Source: Spartobacteria bacterium (GTDB lineage Bacteria > Verrucomicrobiota > Verrucomicrobiia > Chthoniobacterales > Chthoniobacteraceae). Taken from it: DNA of 64,000 bases. The stretch covers positions 1 to 64,000 of the forward strand of contig JAJPJG010000057.1 in the NCBI GenBank assembly GCA_021324395.1, written 5' to 3'. Below the pieces are notes generated by a model. The model was not told where the DNA came from, made no database searches, and worked only from the letters and a program-made list of their open reading frames with translations. Shown here in pieces: positions 759 through 46,810 of this stretch. How positions within the stretch are numbered: the first letter of the stretch is position 1; the number at the start of each line of letters is the position of its first letter. Made by a program: the position numbers and the translations under genes.

Positions 759-808
759 ATTACATTGCACATCGGTTCCGAACCGCACGCGAAGTCGGCA
801 GCTCTTCC

Positions 809-837
809 GGTAGCGGCGGTCTATGACCGCCGACGGG
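809..837. repeat. REP-like palindrome, copy 1
   Basis: A GC-rich palindrome built on GGCGGTCTATGACCGCC lies between the deacetylase gene and the 21-bp array. The same core in the opposite orientation forms the right arm of a larger inverted repeat at 22561-22629, so this is a dispersed intergenic palindrome rather than a gene-specific terminator. No T-tract follows. Confidence 0.75.
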
Positions 838-857: not shown

Positions 858-1151
858 GCCGCATTTCCTCCAGAAAACGTCGCATTTCCTAAAGGAAATG
901 CGGCATCTCCTTTAGGAAATGCCGCGTTGTATCCATGCAATGCTTCATTGTATCGATGCAGCGTCACGTTGTATCCCTGCAATGCTCCATTGTATCGATG
1001 CAACGTCGTATTGTATCCATGCAATGCCTCAATGTATCGATGCAACGCTTCAATGTATCGATGCAGCGTCACATTGTATCCATGCAACGCTTCATTGTAT
1101 CGATGCAATGCGACGGAGTATCCCTGCAACGCCACGTCGTATCCCTGCAAA
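858..1151. repeat. Array 1: fourteen tandem units of exactly 21 bp
   Basis: Fourteen units of 21 bp run without a phase break. Three units (858-920) have a GCATTTCCT...AGGAAAT type sequence. Eleven units (921-1151) have the consensus TTGTATCnATGCA flanked by variable bases; cCATGCA and cGATGCA versions largely alternate. Most frames stay open across the array on both strands because 21 is a multiple of three and the consensus lacks stops. Differences between units fall at all three codon positions, so I do not call a protein. The region 759-1310 otherwise holds only the REP palindrome and the boundary sequence at 1281-1303. Confidence 0.9.
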
Positions 1152-1280
1152 ACCGCATCAAACCCACTCCTCCCTTGCCATCCCGCACCCGTCGAGGCGA
1201 AATTGCCGCCGATTTAGCCGAAAACGAGCCATGCAAACGCTACCCATTCCGGTATATGCGAAATCCACCGTTAATCAGCC

Positions 1281-1303
1281 TTTCGCCGAATTCAGAGTTA
1301 GGC
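1281..1303 (+). other. attC/attI-like boundary sequence before a cassette-like gene
   Basis: The segment ends in AATTCAGAGTTAGGC, holding the integron core GTTRRRY (GTTAGGC, 1297-1303). Its 23 bases are identical in reverse complement to the start of the element at 22400, and nearly so to 46198. In all three places the GTTAGGC end lies a few bases before the start codon of a small gene. An attC left partner (RYYYAAC) is not clear here; after the next gene, GCCTAAT at 1691-1697 is one base off. Confidence 0.55.
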
Positions 1304-1310
1304 GTCTCGA

Positions 1311-7413: not shown

Positions 7414-7560
7414 CGCCACCGCCAGGACGGCACGCAAGCCCGCAATCGGCGGGAACACCGCCGAAATTCCCCGTGACGATCCGGGAACGCCGGCGCGCAC
7501 CGCTGAAACGCCCCCGCACATTTCAGAAATGCGAGCGCACAGCGCTGGTTCGATTCCTTG
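7414..7560. repeat. Array 2a: about seven tandem 21-bp units
   Basis: The units are in constant 21-bp phase (boundaries at 7435, 7456, 7477, 7498, 7519 and 7540). The consensus is CACCGCnGAAAnnCCnnCG, more degenerate than in array 1. On the minus strand one frame reads as heptads ending in a Gly/Ala-aliphatic pair. I see no gene here, and 7363-7930 is otherwise non-coding. Confidence 0.75.
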
Positions 7561-7642: not shown

Positions 7643-7830
7643 GCGGCTGCTCGGGGTGTGCAGCGGCTCTTTGCACCAGTGCAACGGCTCCCCGCAGCTC
7701 TGCAGCGTCTCCGCGGACCCGTGCAACGGCTGCTCGCGCTCGTGCAATGGCTCCTTGCGCCTTTGCAGCGGCTTTTTGCCCCGGTGCAACCGCTTTTCAT
7801 GCCTGTGCAACGCCTTTTTGCCTTCCGGCA
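7643..7830. repeat. Array 2b: nine tandem units of 21 bp
   Basis: Units such as GCGGCTCTTTGCACCAGTGCA start at 7663, 7684, 7705, 7726, 7747, 7768, 7789 and 7810, with a 20-bp leading unit at 7643. The fixed part is (G/A)CGGCT...GTGCA. In the plus frame units read as P-V-Q-R-L-F-A-like heptads; in the minus frame they read as (A/P)-L-H-R-x-x-x, weakly echoing array 1. Changes fall at all codon positions. It lies upstream of the FKBP gene. Confidence 0.88.
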
Positions 7831-7930
7831 ATGACTGCCGGATGAGACGAAGCCATTTTCCGGGTCGCATGGCCCGGATCGCAGAGAAACAAAACAACAA
7901 AACACATTAGCAAAGGAGAAAAACCGAACC

Positions 7931-19194: not shown

Positions 19195-19380
19195 GTGATC
19201 TCCGTTTTTTTGTTTATTCCAGCGCAGCCGGGCAGCGTCGTGCTGCAGGGACGCGCTGGTAGCAGTAAGAGCGTGCCTCACCGCGCATATTCCCGGCGAG
19301 GGCGAAATTTTTTCTGCGGTCGCGGTCATCAGGAAAAAATCGTGCGTGCGACTTCTCTTTCGTAATGCTAAATTCAACCC

Positions 19381-19805
19381 GCGAAAGACAGATGATCGCT
19401 CCGGAATTTATTTCGGAGAGGAAAGTCCGAACACCGCAAGGCAGCATGCCGCGTAAAACACGCGGGCGCTTCCGGCGCAAGCCGGTCGCGACGGAAAGTG
19501 TCACAGAAAATAAACCGCCGCGGCGCAAGCTGCGGCAAGGGTGAAAAGGCGGGGTAAAAGCCCACCGCCCGGCGCGCAAGCACCGGGGCACGACAAACCC
19601 CATGCGGTGCAAGACAAAACAGGGAGCGGCCCGCCTTGGCCGATGCTCCCGGGTAATAGTCGCCCCTGTCGCCGCTTCGGCGAGCGACGGGCGTGCCGGC
19701 CGTTAATATGCCTACGCTGGCGGGAGAAATCCCGGTTAGACAGGGACCGTGCCGGTGCGAGAGAAATGATCATCCATCGACAGAATTCGGCTTATCGTCT
19801 TTCGC
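19381..19805 (+). ncRNA. rnpB: RNase P RNA, bacterial type A
   Basis: The 5' GCGAAAGAC pairs with the 3' GTCTTTCGC (P1). Between them are the conserved GAGGAAAGTCCGAAC, the GACGGAAAGTGTCACAGAAA region, AAACCGCC, GGTGAAAAGGCGGGGTAA-type core, AACCCCATGCGGTGCAAGAC, the GGGTAATAGTCG and the late GACAGAATTCGGCTTATCG. Length about 425 nt. It is the ribozyme that removes tRNA 5' leaders. It is divergent from bufA with about 186 bp between, and is followed by a strong terminator. A 60-nt internal part is duplicated at 23157-23216. Confidence 0.95.
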
Positions 19806-19810
19806 CCCAT

Positions 19811-21040: not shown

Positions 21041-21078
21041 GTATTTTGATCCTTGATGGTCACAGAGCGGGTAGAAAC

Positions 21079-21137
21079 GCCTAACGAGAACAGATCAACT
21101 ACAGGCGGAGCCTGTTAGCTGCATCGCATGGTTAGGC
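21079..21137 (-). other. attC-like integron recombination site 1
   Basis: On the minus strand GCCTAAC (R'') and GTTAGGC (R') bound 59 bp whose centre, AACAGGCTCCGCCTGTAG, folds into an imperfect hairpin. R'' and R' fit the RYYYAAC/GTTRRRY consensus. The stop codon TAA of the preceding gene (21132-21134) is formed by the GCCTAAC core itself, as is frequent in gene cassettes. Confidence 0.8.
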
Positions 21138-21611
21138 CGCAATTGCTTGCGCGTCCTCCTCAATCTTCGCAGCGGCATATCTGTTGAGCCAGGTAGTTCC
21201 ACCAAAAAGGAGCACCACAACAATGAAGTCGCCGACAAAGCTGGCAAACTGTCCCGGTGCGGTCGGGGCGAAGAACAAAAGCATTCCTGAGCAAACTGGC
21301 GCAAGATACCATAAAGGCACCAGTCGAAGCAGACGCGCCTGTGCCAAAAATGCCTCGTGCCAGAATGCCGAATCGGAAGCAGGATGTGTTCGCAGAAGCT
21401 TGTAACTGAGCGTGAATGCCCAAATGACTCCAGCGATGAAGCCCGATGCAATCAAGATGAGCAGACAGCCATAATACTTCGCGCTGCCTACGCTCAAGTG
21501 CTGCAAATAGTATGCGAAAGCTATAATGATGAGTAAGCAGGCGGCACTTTCACGGATGGCTCGGTGAATAGTGGCTTTAATGAGTTTTTGGATTATTTCG
21601 TTTTTGTTCAT
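21132..21611 (-). CDS. Four-helix membrane protein of unknown function in an integron-like cassette
   Basis: ATG 21611 gives 159 residues with about four transmembrane segments (CLLIIIAFAYYL, GCLLILIASGFIAGVIWAF, LAPVCSGMLLFF, FVGDFIVVVLLFGG). I recognise no family. Its frame extends upstream to 21653 inside the preceding attC-like site, which argues for the internal ATG. It lies exactly between two attC-like sites (21645-21697 upstream, 21079-21137 downstream), so it is a complete one-gene cassette. GC content looks lower than in chromosomal neighbours. Confidence 0.75.
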   Translation of the reverse strand: MNKNEIIQKLIKATIHRAIRESAACLLIIIAFAYYLQHLSVGSAKYYGCLLILIASGFIAGVIWAFTLSYKLLRTHPASDSAFWHEAFLAQARLLRLVPLWYLAPVCSGMLLFFAPTAPGQFASFVGDFIVVVLLFGGTTWLNRYAAAKIEEDAQAIAA

Positions 21612-21644
21612 GGTGTGTTTTTTTGGTGTTGGTGTGCTTTTGCG

Positions 21645-21697
21645 GCCTAACAAGACGAGCTACACGCGGAGCCTGTAGCTGCATTGCATGGTTAAGC
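21645..21697 (-). other. attC-like integron recombination site 2
   Basis: On the minus strand GCTTAAC and GTTAGGC bound 53 bp with the imperfect inner hairpin GCAGCTACAGGCTCCGCGTG. It starts one base after the TGA of the ankyrin-repeat gene. Confidence 0.8.
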
Positions 21698-21698
21698 G

Positions 21699-22388: not shown

Positions 22389-22399
22389 GTGGGAATGAC

Positions 22400-22540
22400 G
22401 CCTAACTCTGAATTCGGCGAAATAGGGTTGCTTCTGAAAACGTGTAAATGGTTCGCATAAAATCGGCTCCCTCGTCGGTTTTCAGAGTAGCAATTCGAAT
22501 AACAAATGACCTCTCAGACAAGCCCAAACTGCTCTCGGGT
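22400..22540 (-). repeat. Conserved cassette-boundary element, copy 1
   Basis: About 138 bp nearly colinear with 46198-46333. It begins GCCTAACTCTGAATT on the plus strand, so on the minus strand it ends in GTTAGGC just before the ankyrin-repeat gene. Inside is an inverted repeat CTCTGAAAAC/GTTTTCAGAAG. In both copies it stands at the 5' end of a cassette series, the place an attI or a lost cassette's attC would take. Confidence 0.7.
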
Positions 22541-22560: not shown

Positions 22561-22629
22561 CTGTAGCGGCGACCTAGTCGGGCCGGAGGTTATCTCCTCC
22601 TAGTCGGCGGTCATAGACCGCCGCTACAG
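22561..22629. repeat. REP-like inverted repeat, copy 2
   Basis: CTGTAGCGGCG (left) and CGCCGCTACAG (right) are exact complements bounding about 69 bp, with inner palindromes GGAGGTTATCTCCTCC and GGCGGTCATAGACCGCC. The latter is the core seen at 809-837. Confidence 0.85.
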
Positions 22630-22648
22630 GCGGGGCTTGGTGGTTGGC

Positions 22649-22760
22649 CTAGCCGTCGAAGGTGACCTCGATGACATCGGTCCAGACCTTGGTCGGGTCG
22701 CCGTCCCAGAAGCAGAGGCGGTAGCGGCGTTTTTGGGCTAGCCAGCTGTCTTCAAGGGGT
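22649..22760 (-). pseudogene. Possible C-terminal gene remnant
   Basis: On the minus strand a frame ending at the stop 22651-22649 reads ...EDSWLAQKRRYRLCFWDGD and PTKVWTDVIEVTFDG, which looks like natural protein rather than random translation. No start or upstream domain is visible; further upstream the frame runs into Pro-rich repeat sequence. It may be the last exon-like tail of a decayed gene. I do not recognise the family. Confidence 0.3.
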
Positions 22761-22894: not shown

Positions 22895-23126
22895 AGGTTT
22901 TCCGTGACGGAAAACCTCGGAGGTGTTCCGGAAAACCTTTCCGGTGCGACAGAAAACCTCGCCTCCATTGCGGAGAACCTTTCCTCCATTCCGGAGAACC
23001 TTGCCTCCGTCGCAGAATACCTGCGGGGGTGTGACAGAAAACCTTTCCTCCCAAGCGGAGAACCTCTCCTCCGGGCCGGAGAACCTCGCAGGTGGGACGG
23101 AGAACCTTTCCCGCGAAACGGAAAAC
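22895..23126. repeat. Array 3a: eleven units, ten of 21 bp and one of 22 bp
   Basis: The units follow CTTTCCTCCnnnnCGGAGAAC. All are 21 bp except the unit at 23021-23042, which has 22 and so would shift any reading frame. The plus frame before the 22-bp unit and a different plus frame after it both read T/P-E-N-L-S/A-type heptads, which shows that the DNA period rather than one protein frame is preserved. The region 22389-23498 is otherwise non-coding apart from the elements listed separately. Confidence 0.88.
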
Positions 23127-23156
23127 CCGGGCAAAATCGCACGGGGCGCAGCTTGC

Positions 23157-23216
23157 GGGGCACGAAAAACCCCATGCGGTGCAAGACAAAACAGGGAGCG
23201 GCCCGCCTTGGCCGAT
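23157..23216 (+). pseudogene. Duplicated 60-nt fragment of RNase P RNA
   Basis: These 60 bases match rnpB positions 19585-19644 with one difference (C to A at the tenth base), on the same strand. The copied part holds the conserved AACCCCATGCGGTGCAAGAC and the GGGAGCGGCCCGCC stem. The copy lacks P1, P4 and both ends, so it cannot be a functional RNase P RNA. It sits between arrays 3a and 3b. Confidence 0.92.
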
Positions 23217-23229
23217 CCAACTGCGAACG

Positions 23230-23292
23230 CTTGCGACGCCATTCTCCACGTCGCAAACCCGACCATCAACGCTTTCAGCGCCATTCTCGACG
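23230..23292. repeat. Array 3b: three 21-bp units after the rnpB fragment
   Basis: Three units begin at 23230, 23251 and 23272, each ending in ACG. The first and third share GCGACGCCATTCTC-like and GCGCCATTCTCGACG sequence. The 21 bases before (23209-23229) also end in ACG and overlap the end of the rnpB copy, so the phase may begin inside it. Confidence 0.65.
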
Positions 23293-32888: not shown

Positions 32889-33257
32889 TTTTTTTACAAC
32901 TGCATGCGCCGCAAAGCTGCGGAATGCGGCGCGGGTTAACTCCGGCAAGAGGGGAGGGCAGTCGTTGGCGACTTCCCTTGCCAATTCACGTTGCTGACGA
33001 GGTTAGCTGTCGGGCTCGAGCGCATGAACTGCTCGCGACGCCGCAGGCGCCGTTTGCCCCGATCCGCGGTCTTTGAAACCGTGGAAAATATGGGTCCCCC
33101 GTTGGCCGCGAAACTCGCGCGGCCATTAAGCTGACAAAGAACTGGCGCTCGTTGTCTCCGATTCCGGCGAAAAGTCAAGCGTTCGTCCGCGCGCCGCGGG
33201 CTTCCGATATTCTCCCCGCCACAAAGCCATCCTCTCGCCCGTTGACGAACTCTTCAG
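32889..33257. other. Non-coding interval, nothing recognised
   Basis: This 369-bp divergent interval between the APC permease and the NlpC/P60 gene must hold the promoters of both. I see no hairpin with T-run, no repeat of the families described elsewhere and no convincing ORF. Confidence 0.5.
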
Positions 33258-44447: not shown

Positions 44448-44464
44448 GGAAACGTCTCTAAGTC

Positions 44465-44523
44465 GCCTAACGAGAATAAGCCCAGCTACAGGCTCCGCCT
44501 GTAGCTGCATCGCTTGGTTAGCC
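44465..44523 (-). other. attC-like integron recombination site 3
   Basis: On the minus strand GGCTAAC and GTTAGGC bound 59 bp; the centre CAGCTACAGGCGGAGCCTGTAG is nearly a perfect hairpin. The TAA stop of the next gene upstream (44518-44520) falls within the core. Confidence 0.85.
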
Positions 44524-44943
44524 TACTGTTTTTGTTCTAGCCAAAATTCGGATGGAAAAAGCAAGTAATAGCATAACTAAAACAAAAGTTATCCATGGAA
44601 TCGCGATCATTGATAAGCCAACGAATAACAATAGAAACCTATGCTTTCCAAAAACATCCTTGTATTCTGTTGCAGTAGTAATTTGCACAGCTTTGTCATT
44701 TAAAAGCGCTACCAGCAAAGGATCGTTGATGCTTCCGGTTTTTGAGTATGTATGAAATGATTGTTCTTTTCCGTTGATGGTGCCGAAACCCTGTATATCA
44801 GAATATTTGTTCAACGTCGCACTCTTGATGTGTCCTGCTTGAGCTTCTGTTACAAATTGTGAGTAGGTTAAATATATATCTGAAGCTCGCCCAGTTGAAA
44901 GAGTAGAGGTAATTAAGAAAGCGATCGTGAGTGCACGGTTCAT
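44518..44943 (-). CDS. Cassette protein resembling the extracytoplasmic domain of FtsH
   Basis: 141 residues: signal-like N-terminus (MNRALTIAFLITSTL), then a domain TYSQFVTEAQAGHIKSATL...INGKEQSFHTYS...NDPLLVALLNDKAVQI that resembles the FtsH_ext periplasmic domain, and two C-terminal hydrophobic helices (LLLFVGLSMIAIPWITFVL). FtsH itself (AAA and protease domains) is absent. It could be a decoy or adaptor for an FtsH-type protease, but that is inference. It lies between attC-like sites 3 and 4. Confidence 0.7.
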   Translation of the reverse strand: MNRALTIAFLITSTLSTGRASDIYLTYSQFVTEAQAGHIKSATLNKYSDIQGFGTINGKEQSFHTYSKTGSINDPLLVALLNDKAVQITTATEYKDVFGKHRFLLLFVGLSMIAIPWITFVLVMLLLAFSIRILARTKTVG

Positions 44944-44951
44944 AAAATATA

Positions 44952-45011
44952 GGCTAACGAAAACAAGATCAGCTACAGGCGGAGTCTGTTAGCTGCATCG
45001 CATGGTTAGCT
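44952..45011 (-). other. attC-like integron recombination site 4
   Basis: On the minus strand AGCTAAC and GTTAGCC bound 60 bp with the inner sequence AACAGACTCCGCCTGTAGC. It directly follows the frameshifted DUF2071 gene. Confidence 0.8.
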
Positions 45012-45738
45012 GTTAGTCCGGTGAACATATCGGCCTCTCCGTGCCACTGATGGCTAAGGTCGCGCATGACAAGGGCGTGGTCGAAGGTGACACTGCCAGC
45101 CGGAAACGCCGACTCGTCGGCGAAGAACGAAGACTCGACGTGCTCGACGGTGAGCGGACGCACCCGCCAGCCGTCGGTCTGAAGCCGAATGCCATCGAGA
45201 CGGCAGCAATCGCGGGTGACTGAGTAGCCAACGCTGCCGCCCTCGAAGTATGCGGACGACTCGGCCAGTGACTCGAAGCAAGAGGTGGCAACGCATCGCT
45301 CTCGTGGGCGCGAAGCTGAACGGTCATGAGGCCGTCGCGCGCACGAATAAACATGGAGATACTGGATCCGTCGTCGGTGACGGCGAAATCTGCCAGATGA
45401 TGCTCGCCCGGAAAGATGCGTCCGCCTGCGAAATGGTTGAGCCAGGAGCCGGTGTCGCGGCGCGGGATAAACACACCCTCGCGTGTTTCGCCGGAAGGTT
45501 CGTCCCACAGAACGGCAATACGATGAGCCGCGTTCTCGCTGGAGATACCGCAGAAGCGGGGAAGCCAACCGGGACGAATCTGCTCCAAGCGGATAAGACA
45601 GATGCCGGCGATTGCATAGCCACGCTGCAGCTTGGGGCGGAAAGGCCGTGGCAAAAAACGTCCCATAACCTCGGCATCCACCCGGAAGTTGACGAGCAAC
45701 CTGCGGCGGATCAGACCATTGATTACTGGAAGACGCAT
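44969..45738 (-). pseudogene. DUF2071 family gene split by one frameshift
   Basis: From ATG 45738 the first frame reads the N-terminal half of a DUF2071 (YqjF-like) protein (INGLIRRRLLVNFRVD, YAIAGICLIRLEQIRPGWLP, up to AHESDALP). Near 45281-45290 the family sequence continues in the next minus frame: ESSAYFEGGSVGYSVTR, RLDGIRLQTDGWRV, VESSFFADESAFPAGS, ALVMRDLSHQWH. That second frame stops at 44969 inside the attC-like site. A single-base indel separates the two halves, either a real mutation or a sequencing error. Function of DUF2071 is unknown. Confidence 0.8.
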
Positions 45739-45747
45739 GGCAGAAAT

Positions 45748-45807
45748 AGTTAGCGAGAACAAGATCAGCTAAAGGCGGAGTCTGTTAGCTGCATCGCATG
45801 GTTGGGG
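45748..45807 (-). other. Degenerate attC-like site 5
   Basis: Same internal sequence as site 4 (CGATGCAGCTAACAGACTCC), but the ends are altered: CCCCAAC on one side and CGCTAACT instead of CGTTAGGC on the other. It may no longer recombine. Confidence 0.65.
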
Positions 45808-45836
45808 GTATGATTGGAATATAGAATTGGTATCAC

Positions 45837-46181: not shown

Positions 46182-46197
46182 GCGAAACGGCTCATAC

Positions 46198-46333
46198 GCC
46201 TAACTCTGAATTAGACGAAATGGGGTTGGCTCTGCAAAGGTGGAAATGGTTCGCACAAAATCGGCTCCCTTGTCGGTTTCAGAGAAGCAATTTGTATAAC
46301 AAATGAATTCTGAGGCAAGTCGAAACTCTCAGG
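46198..46333 (-). repeat. Conserved cassette-boundary element, copy 2
   Basis: Aligns with 22400-22540 over its whole length with scattered differences and small indels, for example shared AAATGGTTCGCA and AAAATCGGCTCCCT. It ends with GTTAGGC before a cassette gene, like copy 1. 46334-46474 holds short direct words (AATGACCAATGACC) and no gene. Confidence 0.7.
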
Positions 46334-46474
46334 GAATTGGCGAAGGAGCGAAGGACGAAAAGCGAATGACCAATGACCAAAGGTCCAATGACCAATAAGT
46401 AATGAGTAATGACCAATGATGAGACATGTCGCAGATATGCTCCACTGCGCGGCGCGAACGGGGAAACGGGTGGT

Positions 46475-46810
46475 TTGTCCGGTTTCCATACAGGCACTGG
46501 TCATTTCCCGCCAGTCAGGGGCGATTCCAGAGGTATGCTGGTCGATTCCAGCCATGTCACACTCGATTTCAGCGTTGTAACGGTCAATTCCAGCCATGTA
46601 AGAGCCGATTTCAGGGCTGCACTGGTCAATTCCAGCCATGTGCGCTCTCATTTCTGCGTTGTCACTCTCAATTCCAGAGGTGTCATTCTCAATTTCAGCA
46701 CTGTCACTCGCGATTCCAAGAGTGGCACCCTCAATTCCAAGAGTGTAAAAGTCGATTTCAAGACTGCGCGTTTGGGTTTCAGCGTTGTAAAAGTTGATTC
46801 CAACGTGTTT
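46475..46810. repeat. Array 4: sixteen tandem units of exactly 21 bp
   Basis: Sixteen units in strict phase from 46475 to 46810, consensus nnnnTCnATTCCAGnnnTGTn. Each unit contains an ATTCCAG or ATTTCAG centre. On the plus strand one frame reads Q/R-F-Q-x-C heptads, on the minus strand another reads G-I-D/E-x-x-x-A heptads and a third L-E-L-R-V-T heptads. Three open frames at once point to a DNA-level period. The 210 bp from 46811 to 47021 must hold the fucI promoter. Confidence 0.9.

Follow-up and report, generated by a model that had tools for sequence, protein, structure and literature searches.

Tandem arrays of the window

The window, the 64,000-nucleotide stretch of Spartobacteria bacterium DNA analysed here, carries six tandem arrays (858-1151, 7414-7560, 7643-7830, 22895-23126, 23230-23292 and 46475-46810) for which the sequence-only reading had claimed a common 21-bp period. 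All six are real by their lag match against shuffles of the same bases, and all are intergenic according to gene calls from a simple hexamer scorer. Four are strong at lag 21 and are detected by TRF, with matches of 0.71 (858-1151; z 17.5), 0.61 (7643-7830; z 9.8), 0.57 (22895-23126; z 10.7) and 0.56 (46475-46810; z 12.7). The other two are weak at 21 bp and stronger at 42 bp, array 7414-7560 giving 0.44 at lag 21 (z 4.2) and 0.52 at lag 42 (z 5.6), and array 23230-23292 giving 0.43 (z 2.4) and 0.81 (z 5.9) respectively. Boundaries in true register are listed in Table 1, together with neighbouring features. One unit of 22 bp and one of 20 bp had also been described; the former is the single long step within array 3a, while the latter was not found in the window arrays.

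Table 1. Arrays and neighbouring features in the window.
Feature	Position	Strand	Description
Palindrome	807-834		CGGCGGTCATAGACCGCCGCTAC
Array 1	860-1153	.	14 units of 21 bp: 3 units GCATTTCC..GGAAATGC, then 11 units TTGTATCSATGCAAYG; one register common to both unit types
t2 element	1166-1310	+	~140 bp, ends TTCAGAGTTAGGC; adjoins array 1 and is duplicated with it in L014
Array 2a	7414-7539	.	6 degenerate units; signal at 42 bp > 21
Array 2b	7651-7839	.	9 units, GTGCAACGGCTCCTTGCAC
RNase P RNA gene	19380-19810
Cassette cluster	21078-21698		Small; attC type as at L181, without integrase
t2 element	22396-22534	-	356 bp from array 3a; heads a cassette cluster
Palindrome	22605-22630		CGGCGGTCATAGACCGCCGCTAC
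Gene 3' end copy	22649-22743		Duplicates the 3' end of L181:2876-3574 (96% copy); situated between t2 and array 3a
Array 3a	22904-23135	.	11 units, GGAGAACCTTNCCTCC; single 22-bp step at 23009-23031
RNase P RNA piece	23138-23216		Duplicates 80 nt of the RNase P RNA gene (91% copy); separates arrays 3a and 3b
Array 3b	23230-23292	.	~1.5 copies of a 42-mer; weak 21-bp signal
c-di-AMP riboswitch	32977-33142	-
Cassette cluster	44464-45808		Small; attC type as at L181, without integrase
t2 element	46194-46330	-	153 bp from array 4; array and t2 also adjacent in L018; heads a cassette cluster
7-bp repeats	46365-46419		TCATTGG/TCATTAG; between array 4 and t2
Array 4	46490-46804	.	15 units; alternating, 42-bp higher order

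A genome-wide period

The observation proved larger than first noted, the 21-bp period extending throughout the genome. In the draft assembly to which the window belongs (G000; 3.68 Mb in 58 contigs, 91.5% complete; 1.417 Mb read), 34 of the 42 intergenic tandem arrays of at least 100 bp have a period of 21, 42 or 63 bp (hereafter 21-type), or roughly 25 arrays per Mb. The period is not universal, since three arrays of ~41 bp and two of ~22/43 bp exist among the 42, the remaining three having other periods. Periods other than the 21-type lie mostly within genes, and only one of the 11 arrays called as coding has period 21. The array at L206:12148, in the alanyl-tRNA synthetase gene (alaS), is truly coding; the gene call at L201:3732 is doubtful and that array may be intergenic. 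Autocorrelation of the intergenic DNA peaked at lags 21, 42 and 63 (z 9.3, 8.0 and 7.2 respectively), the next lag reaching z 1.9, and lag 21 was still the highest (z 3.8) once spacers with detected arrays had been removed. At the same threshold, 1.41 Mb of sequence from a first-order Markov null yielded no array. Other periods are therefore less frequent in the intergenic DNA of this genome.

The spacers that hold arrays (17 tandem, 13 divergent and 5 convergent) resemble other spacers, and a promoter or terminator role was rejected in view of this lack of orientation bias.

Among relatives, 0.2 Mb of G011 (genus g6) contains four 21-type arrays; no intergenic one was found in the samples of G001, G002, G004-G010 and G013 (0.02-0.11 Mb each), a result for the sampled loci. 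Lags 21 and 42 are the top two, weakly, in G005 and G011. Loci linked to fucI in other taxa (1.34 Mb) contained no strong intergenic 21-bp array, and a few marginal signals at 21/42/63. Both G000 and G011 bear arrays, built from different units, in the spacer 3' of an APH-like gene; two further array loci checked in G011 had none, so that sites are shared at two of the four loci tested. For the neighbour of array L192 no clear orthologue was found in the six genomes tried. The open-access literature yielded nothing on 21-bp repeats in Verrucomicrobia or on intergenic tandem repeats of Opitutaceae.

Unit structure

A typical unit has half-sites of 4-6 bases on either side of a ~6-8-base loop, together with a few spacer bases, and is repeated ~6-20 times with a mean identity between units of 0.57. 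Tested against column permutations, 14 of the 32 arrays individually showed significant dyad symmetry (p < 0.05; Fisher 5e-11), the consensus stem pairing 5.0 rather than 4.2 of 6 positions, and each strand folded at lower energy than after column permutation (mean z about -2.3 on one and -2.2 on the other). Two different unit sequences alternate in some arrays, their dyads falling in the same columns (L187, read by eye). The arrays have no unit or half-site sequence in common, most being unrelated by blastn and the rest related only in pairs. Covariation of the dyad pairs was absent overall (p 0.63), compensating changes being confined to a few arrays (window 815, L194, L196 and L206:4595). 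This weakens the RNA structure proposed earlier; dyads that are conserved but show no compensation are better matched by half-sites for a protein than by stems in an RNA.

Column variability showed no codon phase (combined p 0.56, 32 arrays), and five of the 32 arrays are closed in all six frames. Open frames are in slight excess over column-permuted arrays (2.06 versus 1.37 of 6, p 0.001), possibly owing to avoidance of TA. We thus found no selection in any one reading frame, and the hydrophobic-(Q/R)-R peptide motif once offered as a possible sign of common origin loses its support in the absence of codon phase. The sequence-only reading had held a DNA-level function to be at least as likely as a heptad-repeat protein; since other periods are rarer and no frame shows selection, the DNA-level feature is favoured and the heptad protein is not. 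Bending in its simple A-tract form, also suggested there, was rejected for lack of a significant excess at 10.5 bp, the A/T-rich half-sites being ~8 and ~13 bp apart. Their spacing accounts for a raised 7-bp harmonic of A/T content; nucleotide match at lag 7 is not raised, and descent of the 21-bp unit from a heptad was rejected.

Spacing within the arrays changes far less often than sequence. Parsimony gave 8 spacing changes against 1934 substitutions, whereas neighbouring duplicated non-array DNA gave 13 gaps per 150 substitutions (Fisher 3e-10), so that helical phase is kept and spacing changes are ~20 times rarer relative to substitutions, a deficit that is partly ascertainment because array detection favours a constant period. 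As five of the 13 control gaps also come from one pair containing 7-bp repeats, the deficit is suggestive rather than proof of selection. Unit number is unchanged between collinear copies 2% and 14% divergent; between the collinear arrays L150 and L190, conserved columns show no clear reduction in substitutions (0.128 versus 0.162).

Copying between loci and neighbouring elements

Whole arrays have been copied between loci. The arrays at L008:5600-5927 and L181:3603-3930 share 98.2% identity across 328 bp; their ends are sharp and their flanks unrelated, and no target duplication is common to both, a 7-bp AGCTGGA flanking L008 only. Arrays L150 and L190 are 86% identical. Unit sequences had been described as unrelated, which holds within the window but not beyond it: contig C15 carries a copy of array 1 at 85% (L014:3214-3593), which includes ~140 bp of flank, and contig C41 a relative of array 4 (L018:2117-2564). 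Neither RAYT (PF01797), present in most relatives, nor reverse transcriptase (PF00078) had a match in the 91.5% complete draft of G000.

The palindrome of Table 1 is dispersed near several arrays (also L150:9862 and L141:12876), and the 7-bp repeats recur at L018:2586-2746, between the relative of array 4 and its t2 element. An integron integrase (TIGR02249, 485 bits) is encoded at G000:C27:21613-22599 (L181:1613-2599), with a cassette array whose attC is GCCTAACGAGAACAAGATCAGCTGCAGGCGGAGCCTGTTAGCTGCATCGCATGGTTAGGC. The gene L181:2876-3574 has an array just upstream.

An array within alaS

The in-frame array in alaS comprises 10 units (L206:12182-12391) and occupies a loop that in most relatives is 18 residues long. 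In G011 the same loop carries a 103-residue insert with 42-bp repeats, and in G013, from another family, an insert of 95 residues whose 42-bp signal is fainter. The inserts of the three genomes differ in sequence; those of G011 and G013 may be related, as they have a common tail. In G006 (L263) this loop holds an in-frame insert of 113 residues that matches the O6-methylguanine-DNA methyltransferase DNA-binding domain (PF01035, E 1e-12).

Comparison with known repeats

REP/BIME elements are short intergenic palindromes in many copies, like the 21-bp arrays, but they have one common sequence and accompany RAYT, whereas array sequence varies by locus in a draft genome without a RAYT match. Plasmid iterons, direct repeats of ~20 bp that are helix-phased for protein binding, similarly keep helical phase; they lie at replication origins and have one common sequence, whereas the arrays are scattered over the chromosome and vary. 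The arrays differ from CRISPRs, whose near-identical repeats alternate with unique spacers, in being contiguous 21-bp units without separate spacers, and from DGRs and other repeats driven by reverse transcriptase in the lack of a PF00078 match in the draft. MITEs have terminal inverted repeats and target-site duplications; the L008/L181 copies have sharp ends, with no duplication present in both. Rickettsia palindromic elements (RPEs) are palindromic, dispersed and found in frame inside genes (PMC10969869), as is the alaS array; RPEs, however, form families of ~150 bp with a conserved peptide, and the arrays are tandem dyads with neither common sequence nor codon phase. PARCELs likewise repeat in tandem and show dyad symmetry, and shuffling inside genomes has been proposed for them (PMC2996958), but they are coding, with 75-bp repeats, 25 residues per unit and an amphipathic protein motif, in contrast to mostly non-coding 21-bp units without codon phase. 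Fixed-period short repeats at many, largely intergenic loci are also seen in the TAACTGA heptanucleotide repeats of Beggiatoaceae (PMC4679880) and the Geobacter H4 elements (PMC2700814); there each family has one 7-mer, and lag 7 is not raised in the 21-bp arrays. Because the arrays do not fit REP, RPE or PARCEL as these are defined by sequence, we regard them as a variant form of interspersed palindromic repeats.

Interpretation

The data suggest that the arrays form one genome-wide intergenic repeat class in which the spacing of dyads at 21 bp, and not their sequence, is constant. Our preferred explanation, held tentatively and at somewhat less than even chances, is that dyads dispersed over the genome, in phase at every second helical turn, provide a platform for a putative dimeric DNA-binding protein. 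With ~6-20 dyads on one face of the helix, such a protein, nucleoid-associated or regulatory, would occupy them side by side, and selection on binding would maintain the phase and let half-site sequences drift apart between loci. This agrees with the dominance of 21/42/63 among arrays and intergenic lags, the significant dyads without codon-phase signal, the scarcity of spacing changes (their partial ascertainment apart) and the alternating units of L187, whose dyads keep their columns. It sits less well with the lack of a common half-site, which a single sequence-specific protein would not lead one to expect, or with the ~41- and ~22/43-bp arrays, the absence of bias to promoters or terminators, the array inside an essential coding gene (alaS) and the substitution rates of L150/L190. 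A still less certain proposal is a repeat class defined by spacing only, with locus-specific sequences and phase kept by selection, serving as a scattered scaffold for a putative DNA-binding protein.

A selfish or neutral palindromic satellite, which we hold a little less likely than the platform, would spread as whole arrays by duplicative transposition or recombination and then decay, the 21 bp being set by the making process (a putative enzyme copying a hairpin of ~17 nt together with a spacer) and not by host function. The sharp-ended L008/L181 copies and the other related pairs (L150/L190, window/L014 and window 46490/L018), the patchy distribution, the lack of orientation bias and the insertion into the alaS loop favour a selfish element; the missing RAYT and reverse transcriptase matches, the want of a clear target duplication and the deficit of length changes speak against it. 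A DNA-level role is favoured by phase being kept while sequence is free. The two are not exclusive; we rank the phased protein platform slightly ahead. Transcription of the arrays as rows of RNA hairpins, acting in stability, termination or protein capture, would explain the low folding energies and the few compensating changes, but is improbable given that covariation is absent overall, folding is equal on the two strands, there is no 3'-end preference and all three of the window's Rfam matches fall outside the arrays. Hypermutable VNTRs arising by replication slippage, with unconstrained unit length, would account for the 42- and 63-bp higher-order similarity as past duplication of two or three units; slippage does not explain a single genome-wide period, nor do the constant unit numbers of collinear copies suit it, and we consider it very unlikely. 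Heptad-repeat proteins, 21 bp being seven codons, could draw on the in-frame alaS array and the slight open-frame excess, yet the want of codon phase, the arrays closed in six frames and the existence of 22- and 41-bp arrays leave them with hardly any likelihood. Lowest of all we place an origin as integron by-products, either ORF-less cassettes or landing sites: a t2 element lies 0-360 bp from three of the four window loci, two of these elements head attC-bearing cassette clusters and an integrase is present in G000, but most arrays have no attC-like site nearby and G011 has arrays without an integrase above the family cut-off.

Bacterial interspersed repeats known so far are recognised by sequence, and a family defined mainly by period would escape sequence-based repeat finders. 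Such a family would imply that phase is read by a protein bound to the chromosome, or else that copying is measured out in steps of 21 bp. The alaS loop, with different inserts of 21/42-bp period in three lineages, makes this question testable by comparison of strains.
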